Part shown: piece after piece, positions 45,961 to 57,654 of the stretch
How positions within the stretch are numbered: the stretch's first letter is position 1
How the letters are laid out: each line of letters starts with the position of its first letter
Origin: a virus
Virus record (IMG/VR): IMGVR_UViG_3300004151_000007
Location: 18,099 to 82,098 of that record
Reading direction: 5' to 3' (one strand)
DNA: 64,000 bases
The notes under the pieces: model-generated
Seen by the model: only the letters and a program-made list of their open reading frames with translations
Told to the model about the DNA's origin: nothing
Databases searched by the model: none
Program-made: the position numbers and the translations under genes

Positions 45961-48900
45961 ATGACGCAGACCTCCGCCATCCTCTTCCTCAACCTTTCCG
46001 CACGCCTAGCGAAGGCGCTCGGCCATGGCCAGCGCTGGATCACCGTCCACCCGAACGGGAGGGACGAGAAAGGCGTGCCTGTGCTGATCCAGCAAAACCC
46101 CGACGGCTCGGCCCGGGTGGTCGGCGGCGCCGGCGGCAAGCTCAACTACCTCAAGCTGAACGGCGTGCGGTCCGAGGCCGAATACAAAGAAGACGCCCGC
46201 AAGCGCTCGGAAGGTCGCCGCGCGCTGAAGAAGGTCAAGCAGGAAGAGGACCGGAAGGCCGGGTTGACCAAGTCGAAGAAGGCGGCGAAGGACGCGATCA
46301 AGTCTCAGGTGCGCCAGCATCAGCAGGAGTTCGTGCGCACCGTCGCGGAAGCCCTGGGCTGGAAACAGGAGGAACTGGAGCTGCCGCCGACGAAGCTGGC
46401 GAACCTCTCGGAGACCGCGCAGAAGAAGGCGGTCGCGAAGCACCAGCGCGAGGTGTTCCACCGCGCGCAAGAGGCCGTCGAGACGCAGCGGCAGATGCTG
46501 GTGGCCGACGCTGAAGCACGGGATGCGGCAGGGCTCGGGGAGGTCAAGCTGACCACCGACAACCCGGAGGAAATCACCGTCCAGGACCTGGCGCCCGCCG
46601 GGGAGACCGGCAAAGGGCTGGGGTACACCACCGACTACGGCAAGCGCGCGGAAGCGGCGGGCCTGACCGAACAGGACCTGAAGGAGGAGGCCGCGGCCGC
46701 CAAGCCGCTGCCGAAGAACCAGCCGAAGGCAGGGGAACCATCCGCCAGCGAGAAGCGGAAGGCCACGGGAGCGAAGATCGCGGCGGAACTGGAGACCGTT
46801 CGGGATACCGCGCCGAAGGTCGACCCGCGCCAGACGGTGGAGGCGAAGAAGGCTGTCGAGCTGATGCAGGCGGCCAAGAAGCTGAAGGCGGTGCAGAAGG
46901 CGGCGGCAGAACAGAATCGCAAGGTCGATGACGCGAAGGAGCCGGTGGAGCCGAACGCCTATGTGCTGGAGGTCGGCAACAGCGCGGTCGAATCCGACGT
47001 CGTCAAGGATCTGGAGAACGACCTGCGCACGCTGCGCACGCGGGCCTTCCTGGAGGAGGTCGGCCGGATGACCGGGCCGAACCAGGAATCGCTGGGGCGC
47101 CATATCGGCGTTGGAGCGTACAACTCCATCAACTCGCTGGCGCTGGCTGCCGGTGGCTCCAGCATGGTCGACCGCAGTGTGGTGGATGTGCTCGGCGTGG
47201 CCGGTGCTTCCCAGGTCCTCGCCCGTCGCCTCGCGGCTGATTTGACGCCGGACGAGCTGGAGCATGTCCGGCAGGCGATGGGGGCCTATCACGTCGACCA
47301 CTACATGCGCCTGTCCGACGAATCCCTCCGGGAAGCGCGGCAGTGGCACGAGATGGCGCACGAAATCGAGGTCGGGGAGGCATCGAACGGCGCGGAGCTG
47401 ACCGTCGCCCAGGAACTGAACGCCAAGCGGCGCGATTTCATCGGCCATGCCCAGCGGGTGCTGGGGACCTCGCTCGGCGAAATGGAAGCCAACGCGGCGC
47501 TCGTGGTCGCGCTGGAACAGCCGAAGAAGGACAAGATCACCGTCAGCCTGGGGACGACGACGGTAGAGGATGCCATCCGGCAGGCCCGTGCGATCGGCCT
47601 GGAGCGCGGCGAGTATCAGGTGGAGAAGGTGGGTGCCTCCACCATGCTGACCGTCCATGGGGCTGGCATGGACAAACTGGCGCAGCCTGTGGCCAAGGCG
47701 GACCTGCTGCGCACCAAGGGCGCCATGGACATCATCAACGGTCATGCCGATGAAGATGACTGGCTGCCCCATGGTGTCGCCCGGCGGCCGGACATGGCCA
47801 TGCAGGTCAAGCCCGGCACCGCTCTGCGACTGGCCCAGCCGTTCCCCGATCAGCCGTCCGACCTGGAGGGCGCGATCCGCAGCTACATCGGCGGGCGCAC
47901 CGCGGACGGCGATGCGCCGGCGGACATCATGTCGGACCTCTTGTCGGAGGAGACGCTGCGCAAGGCCAGCGACCGCGACGCCTTCATGGCGGCGCTGGAG
48001 CGCGTGGCGCCGCTGCGCGGCGGCGACGGGAAGATGATCCGGGCGGAAGCCTACCAGGGCGATTTCGAGCGCCTGGCGGACGACTATGTGCAGCAGCTCG
48101 GCGGGGATCGCTCGCCGCTCCACCGCCAGAAATTCGACGTCGACCAGGTCGCGGTTGACGCGCTGCACCGGGCGCTGGCGGAGCATCCTGACGGGGTCGC
48201 GGCGTTCAAGCCAATCGGGGAGCTGACGCCACAGGATCAGCGTGCGCTGCGCGAGACCTTCGCGCGAGAATACGGCAAGTCCGATCCGGAAGCGGAATCT
48301 CTGCGGGCAGAGCTTGAGAAGATGGACGCCAGCGAGCCGGAGCGGGAGGTGGACGACATGTTCGGCCGGGGCACCAACCCGGCCTGGACCGAATGGCAGG
48401 GCAAGCGGAACGAGCTGGCGGAGCGCGTCAACAAGGCGACCATGAACTGGCAGAGGTATCTGGCCGTCATGGGTTCGCCGGCGAACGCCTATGCGGCGAT
48501 GCAGGACGTGGTCAAGTCGAAGGTGCTGCGCTCCTTCGCCGATCACCACAACCGCCTCCGCCCAGGCCAGCCGCTGAAGACTGGCCGGACGGTGATCGCG
48601 CACGATCTGCATCACCTCGACGCCCTTGACGCCGATGCGCGCGAGCGTCGACTGGCGCAGCATCGCAATCTGGTCGATTCCCTCCGCAACCGCGTCGCCG
48701 GCAAGTATGCCAGCGGCGCCGTCGCCGATAAGATCCAAGTATCTCGGGCGGCGCGCCTCGCCGAAGAACAGGCGCAGATGGGATTCTTCGGCGCGACGGA
48801 GACCCCAGCGCCGACGGCAGAGGACGAGGTGCCGACGGAGCGGCCGTTGGAGCTGGGGGAGCGGCACACCATCGGGCATGCGGCGGAGCGTCAGGTCGCC

Positions 48901-50574
48901 GGGATGATGCCCATCGTCGGGAAGAACTTCCGGCCCGGGCAGCCGGTGCACCTCTGGCAACCGACCATGTCGGGCGACTATGTCGGCCGCCAGCGCGCGG
49001 TGAAACTGATCGAGCACAACCAGCGGACCATGCTGGGGCTCGGCGTCGGCTCCGGCAAGACGTCCATCAGCCTCGCCGGGTACACGCACCTCCATGCGCA
49101 GGGCAAGGCCAAGCGGGGCCTGTTCGTGGTGCCGTCGGTGGTACAGGGGCAGTTCCATGGCGAGGCCCTGACGCTGCTGGAGCCGGGCAAGTACAACTGG
49201 CACTGCGACCCGGGCGCCGGCCGGGAGGAGCGGATCAAGGCCTACAAGGATCCGGACTGCCATTTCAATGTCGTCACCCACCAAGCCTTTCGCGACGACA
49301 TCCTCCACCTCGCCAGCCAGCGGGAGGGCACCACGCCGGAGGCGGTGGCGGAGAAGCTGGACGGTATGAAGCCGGCCGAGCGGAAGGTCTATATGAGCGA
49401 CCTGCTGTCGGCTGAAGGAATCGACCACGATTATCTCGCCATTGACGAGGGCCACAACCTGTTGAACCGGGCCGGCAAGGAGAACAGCCGCATGGCCAAC
49501 GTCATCGACGGCGTGGCCCATGGGATGCCCTACTACGTCAACATGACCGCCGATCCGGTGAAGAACGATTCGTCGGAAGCCTTCGACGTCCTGTCGAAGA
49601 TGGACCCGGAACGCTACCACGACCGCGAAGCCTTCATGCGCAAGTATGGCGTCAACACTGCCGCCAGCGCTGACGCGCTGCGCCACGAGATGGCGCGGCA
49701 CTTCTACACCGGCCGGATCGACCCTGGGGTGAAGGCCACCAATCGGGAGGTGACGGTTCAACTCGACCAAGCGCAGCACGCTCGGCTGAAGACGCTGGAC
49801 GATGCCGTTGCGCGGGCGCGGCTGGCCCGGATGAAGGGCGGGGTGGACCTGGAGGCGGTCAAGACGCTCTCCCCCTCCTCTTTTGAGGACGTGCCGGAGG
49901 CCCAGCATGAAGCGGTTGCGCGGGAACTCCAGAAGAACATCGGGATCGTTCACAACACCGCGATCCACCACGCGATTAACGGCGGGGCGAAGACCGAGGC
50001 GCTGGCCAAGGTGGCTGCGGAACGGAAGGGCAAGCCGGGCGTCGTCTTCGTCCATTCCCTCGACCGCGTGAACGAGGTCGCAGATCGGCTGCGCAAGGAA
50101 GGGCACAAGGTCGCCACCCTCACCGGGGCCCATTCGTCACAGGAAAAGGATCGGATCAAGCGCGGGTTCCAGTCCGGGCAGCACGACATCATCATCCTGT
50201 CCGACGCCGGCGCCGTTGGGGCCAATCTCCAGCGCGGGCAATGGCTGGTGCAGTACGACACGCCAATGACCGCCATGGTGCATGCCCAGAGGCGGGGGCG
50301 CATCCATCGCGTCGGGCAGAAGAACGACGTCGAGCTGCTGGACTTGGTCGCCGATCATCCGGCGGAGCGTCGAGCGCGGAAACGCCTGACGGAGAAGTAC
50401 GAGCTGCGCGACATCATGACGAGCCCGCTTGAAGGGCTCGATGACCGCGGCGTGGCCGGCTATCTCAACCGGGCCCGCGCTGGCCAGCTTGACGCGGAAC
50501 AACCGCATTTCGTGCCGGCCGGAGATGCTGACGTGCCGGACCTGGAGGAGGAGGAGCAGACGAGCCTATTTTAG
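45961..50574 (+). CDS. Large Snf2-type helicase, virion-associated candidate
   Basis: A 1,537-residue protein. The N-terminus has AILFLNLSARLAKALGHG and a W-rich hairpin. Residues about 70-330 are Lys/Glu/Ala-rich coiled coil. The helicase occupies about 980-1510: Walker A GVGSGKTS about 1028, AIDEGHNLL about 1161, FVHSLDRVNEVADRL, and motif VI HAQRRGRIHRVGQ about 1441. It lacks a visible methyltransferase motif, unlike its larger neighbour. The pairing with that gene, the shared N-terminal motif and the leaderless late promoter suggest both are packaged and act on DNA at entry or during packaging. Confidence 0.8.
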   Translation: MTQTSAILFLNLSARLAKALGHGQRWITVHPNGRDEKGVPVLIQQNPDGSARVVGGAGGKLNYLKLNGVRSEAEYKEDARKRSEGRRALKKVKQEEDRKAGLTKSKKAAKDAIKSQVRQHQQEFVRTVAEALGWKQEELELPPTKLANLSETAQKKAVAKHQREVFHRAQEAVETQRQMLVADAEARDAAGLGEVKLTTDNPEEITVQDLAPAGETGKGLGYTTDYGKRAEAAGLTEQDLKEEAAAAKPLPKNQPKAGEPSASEKRKATGAKIAAELETVRDTAPKVDPRQTVEAKKAVELMQAAKKLKAVQKAAAEQNRKVDDAKEPVEPNAYVLEVGNSAVESDVVKDLENDLRTLRTRAFLEEVGRMTGPNQESLGRHIGVGAYNSINSLALAAGGSSMVDRSVVDVLGVAGASQVLARRLAADLTPDELEHVRQAMGAYHVDHYMRLSDESLREARQWHEMAHEIEVGEASNGAELTVAQELNAKRRDFIGHAQRVLGTSLGEMEANAALVVALEQPKKDKITVSLGTTTVEDAIRQARAIGLERGEYQVEKVGASTMLTVHGAGMDKLAQPVAKADLLRTKGAMDIINGHADEDDWLPHGVARRPDMAMQVKPGTALRLAQPFPDQPSDLEGAIRSYIGGRTADGDAPADIMSDLLSEETLRKASDRDAFMAALERVAPLRGGDGKMIRAEAYQGDFERLADDYVQQLGGDRSPLHRQKFDVDQVAVDALHRALAEHPDGVAAFKPIGELTPQDQRALRETFAREYGKSDPEAESLRAELEKMDASEPEREVDDMFGRGTNPAWTEWQGKRNELAERVNKATMNWQRYLAVMGSPANAYAAMQDVVKSKVLRSFADHHNRLRPGQPLKTGRTVIAHDLHHLDALDADARERRLAQHRNLVDSLRNRVAGKYASGAVADKIQVSRAARLAEEQAQMGFFGATETPAPTAEDEVPTERPLELGERHTIGHAAERQVAGMMPIVGKNFRPGQPVHLWQPTMSGDYVGRQRAVKLIEHNQRTMLGLGVGSGKTSISLAGYTHLHAQGKAKRGLFVVPSVVQGQFHGEALTLLEPGKYNWHCDPGAGREERIKAYKDPDCHFNVVTHQAFRDDILHLASQREGTTPEAVAEKLDGMKPAERKVYMSDLLSAEGIDHDYLAIDEGHNLLNRAGKENSRMANVIDGVAHGMPYYVNMTADPVKNDSSEAFDVLSKMDPERYHDREAFMRKYGVNTAASADALRHEMARHFYTGRIDPGVKATNREVTVQLDQAQHARLKTLDDAVARARLARMKGGVDLEAVKTLSPSSFEDVPEAQHEAVARELQKNIGIVHNTAIHHAINGGAKTEALAKVAAERKGKPGVVFVHSLDRVNEVADRLRKEGHKVATLTGAHSSQEKDRIKRGFQSGQHDIIILSDAGAVGANLQRGQWLVQYDTPMTAMVHAQRRGRIHRVGQKNDVELLDLVADHPAERRARKRLTEKYELRDIMTSPLEGLDDRGVAGYLNRARAGQLDAEQPHFVPAGDADVPDLEEEEQTSLF

Positions 50575-52646: not shown

Positions 52647-52837
52647 AGTGCTCGCACTGCGGCGCGAATCTGGTCCACATCACCGAAAAGGGTGAACCCT
52701 TGGTGAAGAACCACGGGATCATTTTGAAGGCGGACGGCATTGCGTTGATCTGCCCGAAGTGCAAGGGCGATGTCTCCATGGGCCATGACTTGGCGAAAGC
52801 GCTCCAGTCCCGGCTGATCCTCTTTCTGAAGCGGTGA
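52643..52837 (+). CDS. Zinc-ribbon protein ending in the ILFLK motif
   Basis: A 64-residue protein with a CSHCG/CPKCKG zinc ribbon (residues 3-7 and 36-41). Its last 14 residues, LAKALQSRLILFLK plus R, match the end of the zeta-like protein (LQKALPAGGRIIFFLR). This is the clearest small carrier of the proposed packaging motif. It overlaps its neighbours at both ends. Confidence 0.65.
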   Translation: MKCSHCGANLVHITEKGEPLVKNHGIILKADGIALICPKCKGDVSMGHDLAKALQSRLILFLKR

Positions 52838-52839
52838 CC

Positions 52840-54183
52840 ATGTACCTCGTCTCCTTCTCCTCGCTCGAAAAAGCGTTCGTCCGCGGGCACCGGCGGACGT
52901 TGAACGATGGGCGGGTAATCGAGGTCCAGTCCTACACCACCAACACGCCGCAGCGGGCCGGCGGCGGACGCTCTGATTTCGCCCTGCCGAAGGTGCGCAA
53001 GATCCTGTTCATGCGCGGATCGACGCGACAGGGAGGCGCGGACACCACCGGCGACCTGTTCGCCCCGCGACCGGCGCCGGTGCCACAGCGGCCGGAGCAT
53101 ATCGGGGAGCTGACCATTGGTCAGCTTGTCGCGCGGGGGGCGAGGATTGCCGACGAGCTGGTGCCCGGCTTCGAGACCGCGTGGTCGCGCGCCGAACTGG
53201 AGGACAAGGAAACCCGACAGAAGCTGGAGGCGGAGCTTGGTGCGGTCGAGAAGCGGCGCCTGGAACATTTCAGCGAGGCCCTCAAGCCGCTCTATGAGCG
53301 CGCACAGAAGCGCTCGGCGGAAATCGCGGCGACGCTGCCGGAAGGCACGCCCGAGGATGTCTTGGTCGAGGCGTGCAACACCGATCCCGAATGTCACTCG
53401 ATCCGGGTTGCGGTTGATCGAGAGATGGCCGTGCGTCAGAGCCTCACCCAACGAGCCAAAGACTTGGCCCGTCAGCAGCAGGAAGGAGCGGCGACGGTCG
53501 GCCTCTGCACGCGCCTGCGGAAGGCGATGCAGCAGCGCGTGCAGGAGCGCGCCCGTGTCTACCTGTTGTCGGCGGCTGACGATGTCGCTGTCGGCAAGGC
53601 GAAGGAGCACAACGGGACCAAGTTTGGGCCGCTCAATGCCACCGAGAAGAAGGACATCCGGACGGCGATGAAGGACTATTTCACGACGCTCGGCATCGTG
53701 CCCACCGGGCCTGGAGGCCTGGAGCACATCGGGATCGTCGTGGATGACGCTGGCCAACCGTTCCAGCGGGCCCATGCCGGCCTCGCCACCGGCACGCTGA
53801 ACGTCGGCATGCATTTCGGTGCGGGCACCATCTGGCATGAACTGGGTCACTTCTACGAATATCACTACCCGGAGGCCTGCGCCGCCGCGCGCAACTTCCT
53901 GGCCGCCCGGCGAACGTCGACCGTTTCCAAGCCGATGGTGGAGCTGATGCCCAACATGCCGCCGGCCGCCTTCCACCCGTCGGAGTTGGCATTCGAGGAC
54001 CATTTTGTGCACGCCTATGTCGGCAAGGATTATGGCCCGAACAGCGTCACCGAAGTGATCAGCATGGGATTCGAGCGGTTCGCCACGTCGTCCTCGATGG
54101 CGGCCCTGTACCGCCAAGACCCGGAGCACTTTCTGTTCTGCTTGGCGGTCAACCACTGGCTGAAGGATCGACGCGATGTTTGA
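52840..54183 (+). CDS. Zinc metalloprotease-like virion protein
   Basis: A 447-residue protein. It begins MYLVSFSSLEKAF and a beta hairpin with GRVIEVQSYTTNTP, resembling the N-termini of the two giant helicases. Residues about 70-270 are helical. The C-terminal domain has HELGHFYEYH (zinc ligands about 333-337) and TEVISMGFERF (third-ligand Glu, about 404-414), the layout of a zincin. It may cleave phage or host proteins after entry, or process the head. ATG 52840 was chosen over an upstream GTG. Confidence 0.7.
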   Translation: MYLVSFSSLEKAFVRGHRRTLNDGRVIEVQSYTTNTPQRAGGGRSDFALPKVRKILFMRGSTRQGGADTTGDLFAPRPAPVPQRPEHIGELTIGQLVARGARIADELVPGFETAWSRAELEDKETRQKLEAELGAVEKRRLEHFSEALKPLYERAQKRSAEIAATLPEGTPEDVLVEACNTDPECHSIRVAVDREMAVRQSLTQRAKDLARQQQEGAATVGLCTRLRKAMQQRVQERARVYLLSAADDVAVGKAKEHNGTKFGPLNATEKKDIRTAMKDYFTTLGIVPTGPGGLEHIGIVVDDAGQPFQRAHAGLATGTLNVGMHFGAGTIWHELGHFYEYHYPEACAAARNFLAARRTSTVSKPMVELMPNMPPAAFHPSELAFEDHFVHAYVGKDYGPNSVTEVISMGFERFATSSSMAALYRQDPEHFLFCLAVNHWLKDRRDV

Positions 54184-54649: not shown

Positions 54650-55525
54650 ATGCTGGATGTGGAGACCGAATACCTGAGCATCCCCGATATGCTCAAGGCG
54701 ACCCCCTCCGAAGAGGGCGGGGAGCGCATCCTGTATTTCGAGGCGTCGAACGAGGCCCGCGACCAACAGGGCGAAGTGGTGATGCAGAAGGCGCTGGCCG
54801 ACAGTGCCGACTTTTACCTGCGCTACGGCAACATCGACATCGACCACGTCACACAGGTCGGGGCAAAGCAAGGCATCCCGGATTATAATCTCTTCGAGAT
54901 TGGCCGTCCTGTCGATGTGCGACTGGACGGGCGCAACACCTTCGTCAAGTCGGTGATTTACCGTGGCGAAGGGCCGATGGCGGCCAAGGCCAATCAGGTC
55001 TGGTCGAGTCTCACCGACATTACCCCGCCGGCGCGCTGGTACCCCTCTGTCGGCGGCGCGATCCTGGAGCGTGTGCCGGATTTCGATCCGCTGACGCGCA
55101 CCACCCGCACGCTCATCAAGCGTGTCCGCTGGACCAACGTCGGGCTCTCCCGCACCCCGGTTAACCAGACGGTCCCGACCGTCTCCACCGTACCGTTCGG
55201 CGTCCTGGCCAAGAGTTGGGGCGCCAACGGTCTGTTGCTGGCGAAGGGCCTGGAGGCCGGGTACGGCTCGGACGCCGCCACCCTGACCGGCGGGGCCGCG
55301 CTGCGTGGCCAATCGCTGGACCGCAAGGTGCAGTCCTATTTCGACTTCCGCGACAAGCTGGCCGGCGACATCCGCAAGCGCCGTGTCCATCCCACGGCAG
55401 AGCGCATCGTCGCTCACGCCTCCTCCCACTACGGCCTGGATGGCTCCACAGCGGCCGAGTGGACCGAACGATTCCTCCGCGACCTGCATTCAGGTCTGTC
55501 CAAAACCAAGAGGACGAAGCAATGA
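54650..55525 (+). CDS. Prohead protease / head maturation protein
   Basis: A 291-residue protein. ILYFEASNEARDQQGEVVM (about residues 22-40) and IDIDHVTQVGAKQGIP (about 62-77) resemble the start and catalytic His region of head maturation proteases. VGLSRTPVNQTV, with a candidate Ser about 167, fits the S78/S14-like serine protease pattern. Residues about 201-225 (LEAGYGSDAATLTGGAALRG) nearly duplicate the N-terminus of the capsid protein. ATG 54650 is preferred over an upstream TTG. It cleaves scaffold and capsid during maturation. Confidence 0.75.
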   Translation: MLDVETEYLSIPDMLKATPSEEGGERILYFEASNEARDQQGEVVMQKALADSADFYLRYGNIDIDHVTQVGAKQGIPDYNLFEIGRPVDVRLDGRNTFVKSVIYRGEGPMAAKANQVWSSLTDITPPARWYPSVGGAILERVPDFDPLTRTTRTLIKRVRWTNVGLSRTPVNQTVPTVSTVPFGVLAKSWGANGLLLAKGLEAGYGSDAATLTGGAALRGQSLDRKVQSYFDFRDKLAGDIRKRRVHPTAERIVAHASSHYGLDGSTAAEWTERFLRDLHSGLSKTKRTKQ

Positions 55526-56172
55526 GCGATTTTCAGGCGCTGCTGGACGAGCTGGGCGCGCTTGCCAAGGCGCTGCCAGCACAGGGCGAAGACGACAAGA
55601 ACATCCAGGCAGCCGCCGGCGGCGCTGGCGGTGAAGGCGACGGCAAGGATGGCGACGGCACCGGCGGTGAAGGCGACGGCAAGGGCGGCAATCAGGAGGA
55701 GGAGGACGAGACGTTCGGCAAGTCGTTCCAGGTCACGCTGGATGACGGCACCACCGTCGATGCCTTCGACGGCACCGCCATGATGAAGGCCCTGAACAGC
55801 AAGGTGGCGCGGCTGGAGGCGAGCAATCAGGCGCTGGCCGCGGATCGTAACGCGTCCCTCCAGGTGGTGACGCAGTCCATCGAACTGATCAAGAGCCTCC
55901 AGGGCACCGTCACCAAGCTTCAGGCTGACGTCACCCGCCTCGCCGGCGCTGGCGCCGGTCGCCGCGCCGTCGTGAACGTCCTGGATAAGCCCGGCACGGG
56001 CCAGCAGCTCGCCAAGTCCGAAGGCCTGTCGGGCGGCGATCTGAGGGCGAAGGCGCTCGAAGCGCAGCGCGCCGGTCGGATCGGGGCGACCGAGGTCGCC
56101 CGTGTCGACTCCTACCTGGGCAAGTCCCTCCAGCTTCCCGCCGACCTTCTCCACGCCATCGGCGCCGTCTGA
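55522..56172 (+). CDS. Scaffolding protein
   Basis: A 216-residue protein. It has an acidic Gly-rich region (residues about 33-65) and then a coiled coil (SKVARLEASNQALAADRN; IELIKSLQGTVTKLQADV), typical of phage scaffolds. The C-terminal 60 residues (GDLRAKALEAQRAGRIGAT...) probably bind the capsid protein. It overlaps the protease gene by 4 bp and precedes the capsid gene, the standard order protease-scaffold-capsid. Confidence 0.75.
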   Translation: MSDFQALLDELGALAKALPAQGEDDKNIQAAAGGAGGEGDGKDGDGTGGEGDGKGGNQEEEDETFGKSFQVTLDDGTTVDAFDGTAMMKALNSKVARLEASNQALAADRNASLQVVTQSIELIKSLQGTVTKLQADVTRLAGAGAGRRAVVNVLDKPGTGQQLAKSEGLSGGDLRAKALEAQRAGRIGATEVARVDSYLGKSLQLPADLLHAIGAV

Positions 56173-56202
56173 TTCTCAACCGGCTTTTCTGAAGAGGCTT
56201 CT

Positions 56203-57654
56203 ATGGACCCGAAACTCCTCAATACCGGCACCCCGACGGGCGCTGTGCCGGACAACGAAGTCGCCGCGCTCCAGAAAGCGCTGGAGGCCGGTTACGGCAC
56301 CGATGCCGCCGGTCTGACCGGTGGTGCGGCGCTCCGCGTGCAGTCGCTGGACACCACCATGCAGGCGGTGATTCAGGAAAATCAGCACTTCCGGCTGTTC
56401 AACAAGCTTCCCAAGCCGAAGGCCGGCGCGACGGTCGATGAATGGACCGAGCAGAACGGCATCGGCGGTTTCTTGGGCGGCTCGACCAACACCGAAACCG
56501 GCACCATCGCCGACGCGACGGGCAGCTACAACCGCCGGGTCGGGATGACCAAGTACCTGATGACCCGTCGTCAGGTGTCGCTGGTCTCCACGCTCCAGAC
56601 CGCCATCGCCGATGCCGAATCCGTCGAGTACAACAACGGCGCGCTCCAGCTCCTGACCGACGCCGAGTTCCTGTGCTTCGAGGGCGACGATCGCGTGGTG
56701 CCGACTGAGTTCGCCGGCATCTATGCGCAGATGCAGGATGGCGTCGCCTCCGGCCAAGTCGACACCAACAACATCCTGGACTGCCGGGCTCAGTCGCTGA
56801 CCAGCGTCGATCTGGTCAACCGAGCGGCGGCGCAGATCAGCGGTTACGGCAACTTCGGCACCCCGACCGACCTGTTCCTGTCGCAGCTCTCCCAGGCCGA
56901 TTTTGACACCGGTCTCGACCCGGCGTTCCGCGTGCCGCTGACCGACGTTCCCAACGGCGGTATCTCTCTGGGCGCGCCGGTGGTCGGAATCCGCACCAGC
57001 CACGGCAACATCAAGAACAACCCCGACGTCTTCATCCGCGACGAATCCCAGCAGGTTCCGTTCGAGATGCGCTACCCGGCAGTCGCCGCCAAGCAGGTCG
57101 GCATCAAGCCGACGTCGGTCGCCGCCGCGGCCCCGTCGGCGGACGCGTCCAGCTATTTCGAGGCGGGACACGCCGGCAACTATTACTACCTGGTTGCCGG
57201 GGTGAACGCGGCCGGTCAGTCCGTCGGCCTCGCTTCGGCACAGGTCGCCGTGGCGGCCGGTCAGAAGGTCGTGCTGACGATCAGCGCGTCGGCCGCCAGC
57301 GAAGAGACCGGCTATGTGATCTACCGCTCGCGCAAGAACGGCTCCAATGCGGTGGCCGATTTCCGCGAGATGGTGAAGGTGCCGAAGGCGGGCCCCACCA
57401 CGGTCTACACGGATCTGAACCGCGACGTTCCCGGCACGTCGAAGGGCTACATTTTGAACATGGCGCCTGGCGCGACCGCCATCACCTGGCGGCAGCTCCT
57501 GCCGATGCTGAAGTTCCCGCTCTACCCGACTCATGCTGCGGTGATCCCTTGGGCGCAGATGCTGTTCGGCTACCTCCGGATCAGCAAGCGGCGCCATCAC
57601 GTCGTCATCAAGAACATCCTGCCGCACGGCGCGGCCTGGAAGCCGTTTGGCTAA
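56203..57654 (+). CDS. Major capsid protein with Ig-like insertion
   Basis: A 483-residue protein with a major-capsid layout. The N-terminal arm has LEAGYGTDAAGLTGGAALRV (about 27-46). RRVGMTKYLMTRRQVSLV, VEYNNGALQLLTDAEFLCFEG and a C-terminal MLFGYLRISKRRHHVVIKN follow. Residues about 307-410 form a beta-rich domain with GNYYYLVAGVNAAGQS and TGYVIYRSRKNG, like Ig or fibronectin-type domains on phage capsids. GAAGAGG precedes ATG 56203. It forms the head shell; the extra domain is likely exposed on the surface. Confidence 0.82.
   Translation: MDPKLLNTGTPTGAVPDNEVAALQKALEAGYGTDAAGLTGGAALRVQSLDTTMQAVIQENQHFRLFNKLPKPKAGATVDEWTEQNGIGGFLGGSTNTETGTIADATGSYNRRVGMTKYLMTRRQVSLVSTLQTAIADAESVEYNNGALQLLTDAEFLCFEGDDRVVPTEFAGIYAQMQDGVASGQVDTNNILDCRAQSLTSVDLVNRAAAQISGYGNFGTPTDLFLSQLSQADFDTGLDPAFRVPLTDVPNGGISLGAPVVGIRTSHGNIKNNPDVFIRDESQQVPFEMRYPAVAAKQVGIKPTSVAAAAPSADASSYFEAGHAGNYYYLVAGVNAAGQSVGLASAQVAVAAGQKVVLTISASAASEETGYVIYRSRKNGSNAVADFREMVKVPKAGPTTVYTDLNRDVPGTSKGYILNMAPGATAITWRQLLPMLKFPLYPTHAAVIPWAQMLFGYLRISKRRHHVVIKNILPHGAAWKPFG

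Follow-up and report, generated by a model that had tools for sequence, protein, structure and literature searches.

A segment of the major capsid protein arm is repeated in the head maturation protease of SPO1-type phage head modules

Introduction

The head maturation protease and the major capsid protein (MCP) of the virus studied here carry a nearly identical segment of 26 residues, and this sharing is no artefact but an ancient, conserved trait of the SPO1-type head module. Most likely, as judged from comparison of sequences, the copy present in the protease serves for recruitment of the enzyme by mimicry of the capsid protein arm. To our knowledge, entry of the prohead protease into the growing shell and its subsequent release have been clarified for few phages. 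Propeptides targeting proteins to the prohead are already known, and a copy of the MCP arm used as a targeting peptide would be a new variation of this principle. No published description of the shared segment was found in the full-text literature, the searched part of which is limited and leaves most subscription papers outside its scope. Since a defined peptide occurs in SPO1 and in the phage K family, protease recruitment becomes directly testable; if it is indeed a docking peptide, it would provide a ready-made tag for cargo loading and indicate that the prohead has a site for binding of the arm.

Shared segment in the protease and the capsid protein

The analysed window is a stretch of 64,000 nucleotides drawn from record IMGVR_UViG_3300004151_000007, which is 82,098 bases long and possibly incomplete. 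Genes of the protease, a scaffold-like protein and MCP are adjacent there in this order; the portal gene was not located in the window. The features used below are as follows (positions of the window).

54650..55525, plus strand: head maturation protease gene (291 aa; phrog_1028, E=1e-33; best Foldseek match T4 gp21, 5jbl, E=2e-4)
54698..55159, plus strand: catalytic domain of the protease (residues 17-170; AF2 pLDDT mostly >90)
55211..55213, plus strand: putative point of self-cleavage, Lys188 within LAK-S of the linker (invariant in alignments A4 and A6)
55244..55321, plus strand: protease segment resembling the capsid protein (residues 199-224; begins with candidate cleavage Lys199; low pLDDT in the AF2 model)
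55331..55519, plus strand: C-terminal three-helix domain of the protease (residues 228-290; AF2 pLDDT ~96 over most of it)
55525..56172, plus strand: scaffold-like protein between protease and MCP (six hydrophobic-x-Lys-[SAGT] motifs, 2.0 in shuffles)
56203..57654, plus strand: MCP gene (483 aa; phrog_752, E=1.6e-81; PDB 9vel, 5lii, 9row)
56203..56277, plus strand: predicted MCP propeptide (residues 1-25, the last being Lys25, invariant in alignment A5; 9row_B starts after the equivalent Lys)
56275..56352, plus strand: shared segment in MCP (residues 25-50; predicted mature start at Ala26)

The pattern KxLEAGYGxDAAxLTGGAALRxQSLD is common to residues 199-224 of the protease and 25-50 of MCP, with 22 of 26 residues being identical (21 of 24 in the stretch LEAGYG...QSLD). 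The best local alignment of the two proteins scored 113, while the maximum in 300 shuffles was 58. Profiles of the two PHROG families recognised the segment crosswise: that of the major head protein (phrog_752) matched protease residues 197-250 with E=0.0016, and that of the protease (phrog_1028) matched MCP residues 22-53 with E=0.0018. Thus, the near identity noticed in the preliminary description holds, and the starts given there (55250 and 56281) were exact. The remaining parts of the two proteins are unrelated, just as it had stated: the protease model resembles proteases of T4 (gp21) and herpesviruses, and the MCP model resembles capsid proteins of SPO1 and phi812.

Foldseek matches of the catalytic domain included T4 gp21 (5jbl, E=2e-4, probability 1.00) and pseudorabies virus protease (E=0.022). 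The catalytic domain has the fold of the T4 gp21/assemblin type, its likeness to the herpesvirus enzyme being weak. His66 and Ser133 are invariant in alignment A4, and the fold suggests their catalytic role. The protease is homologous to gp3.2 of SPO1 (phrog_1028 E=1e-33; E=5e-5 in tblastn against SPO1), and MCP to gp6.1 of SPO1 and MCP of phi812 (E=1.7e-35 with 9vel by sequence, 2.7e-30 by Foldseek). Behind the catalytic domain the protease model has a C-terminal extension on a linker, the flexibility of which is read from low pLDDT only: the low-confidence stretch spans residues from ~171 to 225, including the segment, and lies between two confident domains. The linker contains Lys188, a putative point of self-cleavage. 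In the monomer model of MCP the first ~44 residues are also of low confidence. Because of this low confidence in both proteins, the two segments look like peptides folding on a partner, low confidence alone being no proof of disorder. The C-terminal helices of the protease (window 55331-55519) weakly resemble the N-terminal helices of IHF (E about 0.05-0.65) and possibly form a helical dimerisation hairpin.

Two other genes were registered upstream of the protease. A 449-aa protein (window 52834-54183) weakly matches the profile of a minor head protein and contains in its C-terminal part HELGHFYEYHYP, which we take to be an HExxH zinc-peptidase-like motif. A helicase-like gene for 1,537 aa occupies positions 45961-50574, and helicase genes lie shortly upstream of the protease also in Bordetella PHB04, Morganella Mecenats66 and Thermus Cumys.

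Distribution of the segment among relatives

Local alignment of the protease with its own MCP, performed for 25 named phages and the window, placed the segment on the C-terminal side of the protease and at the MCP N-terminus in nearly all of them; it is degenerate in Thermus Lalka27b and weaker in Lactobacillus Lb338-1 and Morganella Mecenats66. A larger survey covered 214 loci, fetched by patterns lying outside the segment, plus the window. Both genes were detected by segment-free profiles in 206 of them and nine were without; after exclusion of L188, which was too short, the rest formed 116 groups at 90% identity of catalytic domains. In this survey of homologues, set beforehand as the refuting test, a profile built from MCP segments only revealed the segment in 112 of the 116 non-redundant proteases (110 at E<0.001), and its position was behind the catalytic domain. 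The carriers are Gram-negative ~90-kb phages, Herelleviridae of the SPO1/phage K type and Thermus phages; with the segment present in three phage groups, recent local duplication was rejected.

Four of the 116 groups gave no match: the segment is degenerate in L003, L039 is a distant group, and L170 and L209 have lost the segment while keeping the helical domain. Existence of two to four lineages devoid of it means that the segment is not indispensable, and all four count against its role in recruitment, as do the proteases of HK97 and T4, which show no such copy. L170 and L209, one of which is a Methylovulum prophage, represent natural tests of segment dispensability.

A third copy was not found among 10,567 open frames: further matches with E<0.2 were limited to proteases or MCPs of loci not belonging to the 206 pairs. 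Out of 15 whole phage records, 13 had exactly two matches (protease and MCP), one had MCP only, and phiMa had none, since its version of the segment is divergent; its own two copies are still closely alike. In the Thermus phages phiMa and Cumys (L009 and L025) both proteins contain TAGDPHALD...GLTGVPAIR or a near variant. Strong matches in eight bacterial genomes with such prophages were again the protease and MCP, with the MCP copy only in Methylovulum. For the pairs gp4/gp5 of HK97 and gp21/gp23 of T4 segment-type scores were within the range of shuffles, and the assumption that the segment is a general feature of prohead proteases was rejected on these two systems, the only ones tested.

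Conservation and co-variation of the two copies

Mean pairwise identity within the Gram-negative group was 0.64 for the segment, 0.55 for the catalytic domain, 0.45 for the linker and only 0.33 for the helical tail. The segment is therefore the most conserved part of the protease, even though modelling gives it no confident structure of its own. Among 112 phages, the protease segment shares 69% identity with the segment of its own MCP and 56% with foreign MCP segments (z=17 by permutation, with no correction for the tree). In the partial Mantel test r was 0.25 for the whole set, with a permutation maximum of 0.18, but within the 95 Gram-negative phages it was 0.093 with a permutation maximum of 0.219, which is not significant. 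Permutations were also exceeded by a control in which the protease tail was paired with the MCP body and correction was made just for the catalytic domain. Because distance-matrix tests were therefore equivocal, we relied on the tree-based test.

The tree was built from the catalytic domain and MCP body, leaving the segment out. Out of nine same-column states, seven were better described by models with correlated changes (likelihood ratio 11.3-20.8) and two gave ~3, while three of 40 mismatched column pairs reached 11.3; two of these three pair column 8 with column 23, and the states of both columns distinguish one and the same set of phages. The seven column states entered the second run for having signal in the first one, and for column 25, which gave 15.5 and 11.3 in two runs, the lower figure was used.

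Codons behaved differently: at identical residues their identity within the same phage was 1.13 times the expectation, against 1.065 (s.d. 0.023) across phages of like composition. A DNA-level element was rejected, because codons of the segment agree hardly more often than expected (1.045). Since columns co-vary along the tree and codons hardly do, selection appears to act on the peptide, mostly at this level, with some gene conversion possible. Frequent conversion is disfavoured because the copies keep protein-specific residues, aspartate-valine in MCP and aspartate-serine in the protease. In L081 and L090 codon identity between their own two segments is high (16/22 and 17/21), which may reflect recent gene conversion.

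It is highly improbable that the segment is an old duplication without function in the protease, the likeness of which has been preserved by gene conversion or drift. The codon ratio of own pairs, slightly above the cross-phage value and higher in L081 and L090, fits such an origin, but a functionless stretch should hardly be the best conserved part of the protease, kept in nearly all groups, or maintain its own signature at almost expected codon identity.

Cleavage lysine and mature N-terminus of the capsid protein

In PDB chain 9row_B, the mature MCP of a staphylococcal relative, the sequence begins with SFQTGYG, that is, with the first residue past the Lys preceding the segment. Hence in that relative the segment is the mature MCP N-terminus. 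An equivalent Lys precedes the protease copy too. For SPO1, chain 9vel_B has 445 residues, which by our own arithmetic is the remainder of gp6.1 (468 residues) cut after Lys23. No residue separates Lys from the segment in 108 of 112 MCPs and 104 of 112 proteases; in the other four MCPs and eight proteases a Lys is located slightly further upstream. Together with the presence of the segment in most proteases and co-variation of its copies, the mature N-terminus of the solved relative supports at the sequence level the earlier suggestion that the protease carries a mimic of the capsid arm.

The motif hydrophobic-x-Lys-[SAGT] presumably represents the cleavage site. Scaffolds of 26 phages contain 195 such motifs versus 60 in shuffles, but no segment, and in the scaffold-like protein of the window its absence is evident from an alignment score to MCP within the shuffles. 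Scaffolds are probably cut at these sites. As they are rich in the motif yet lack the segment, the two are separable, and cutting probably does not require the segment. The initial proposal of a cleavage element thus survives in part: a likely cleavage Lys does lie at the edge of the segment, but cutting as such seems to be served by motifs without it.

The same data bear on the idea that the segment is an extended substrate or exosite, recognised by the protease when it cuts MCP, so that its own copy would promote self-cutting likewise. Position of the segment directly behind Lys in most proteins of both kinds fits this idea. Against it speak the segment-free scaffolds and the AF2 model, in which the segment takes no ordered place on the catalytic domain, and ~24 residues on the primed side are long for a cleavage motif; we consider this role unlikely.

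Possible role in protease recruitment

From the segment itself, its spread, co-variation and Lys motifs we infer a scheme in which the C-terminal propeptide of the protease imitates the N-terminal arm of MCP, brings the enzyme into the prohead by this means and is cut off at Lys; the scheme has, in our estimation, an even chance of being right. In the protease, the catalytic domain would be followed by a flexible linker that offers one or two Lys for cleavage, then by the copied arm of MCP and finally by a small helical domain. While the prohead is being assembled, the copied arm would bind the site of MCP's own N-terminal segment, on neighbouring MCP or scaffold, and carry the protease inside. 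The active enzyme would then cut after Lys in hydrophobic-x-Lys-[Ser/Ala/Gly]: in the scaffold, in MCP just before the segment and in its own linker. The latter cut would free the catalytic domain, while the C-terminal fragment would be lost or stay bound.

Concerted changes of the two copies during evolution suggest a common docking site. The targeting role is proposed here by reference to gp245 of phage SPN3US. According to passages of two papers (PMC7411985, PMC10052503), this protease removes its own 64-residue C-terminal propeptide, and its truncated but active form is absent from proheads, which led the authors to propose a targeting function for the propeptide. Simple docking to the shell is opposed by data on T4, where the N-terminal regions of MCP are described as disordered in the prohead and folding onto the shell only on expansion (PMC9958956), so that no arm site would be available on the shell at the stage of recruitment. 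Docking to the scaffold is therefore conceivable, and so is a role of the copy in the mature shell.

Action in the mature shell corresponds to a rather improbable alternative, in which the self-cleaved C-terminal fragment of 92 residues stays in the shell permanently and fills arm sites having no partner, for instance at the portal vertex. Both copies begin at a candidate cleavage Lys, and such a fragment would start at or near the same residue as mature MCP. Virions of fRuSau02 were found to contain at least part of the protease (PMC5618024), and in fHe-Yen8-01 it is annotated as particle-associated; in mature T4 shells the 25 N-terminal residues are reported to form a fist touching four subunits (PMC9958956). 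Against this stand the eight proteases in which Lys is not directly at the segment. Slightly more doubtful still is the extension that the false arm and helical domain became a permanent part of the capsid, one peptide being used both for delivery of the enzyme and for marking of the vertex.

Another alternative is a pseudo-substrate: the protease copy may occupy its own active site until assembly, by analogy with T4 gp21, which is blocked by its own N-terminus (PMC9958956). We find autoinhibition very unlikely, as the AF2 model gives the segment low confidence and does not settle it in any ordered way on the catalytic domain, and conservation of as many as 26 residues would be left unexplained.

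Comparison with known systems

Proteases of the T4 gp21 and herpesvirus assemblin type are the best structural matches of the catalytic domain. In herpesviruses the C-terminal part of the protease is common to the scaffold and is not known to be shared with MCP. Unlike the pair studied here, T4 gp21 shares no segment with gp23, and the capsid targeting sequences of T4 differ from the protease segment in being N-terminal; they are described as core-binding, not as copies of MCP. With gp245 of SPN3US the protease has in common a C-terminal part behind the catalytic domain, self-removal being reported and targeting proposed, in the passages concerned, for gp245. Those passages give Glu as the residue after which gp245 is cut, in contrast to the candidate Lys of our protease, and do not describe likeness of the propeptide to a capsid protein.

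The closest relatives of the window virus are, unlike Herelleviridae, Gram-negative ~90-kb phages such as Bordetella PHB04, and with 82,098 bases in a record that may be incomplete, against the ~130-160 kb expected of Herelleviridae genomes, we did not file it as a member of this family. Nevertheless, its head module resembles that of Herelleviridae (gp3.2/gp3.3/gp6.1 of SPO1; phage K, phi812) in the order of protease, scaffold and MCP, in the homology of the protease and MCP, and in the segment that these two proteins share in Herelleviridae too.
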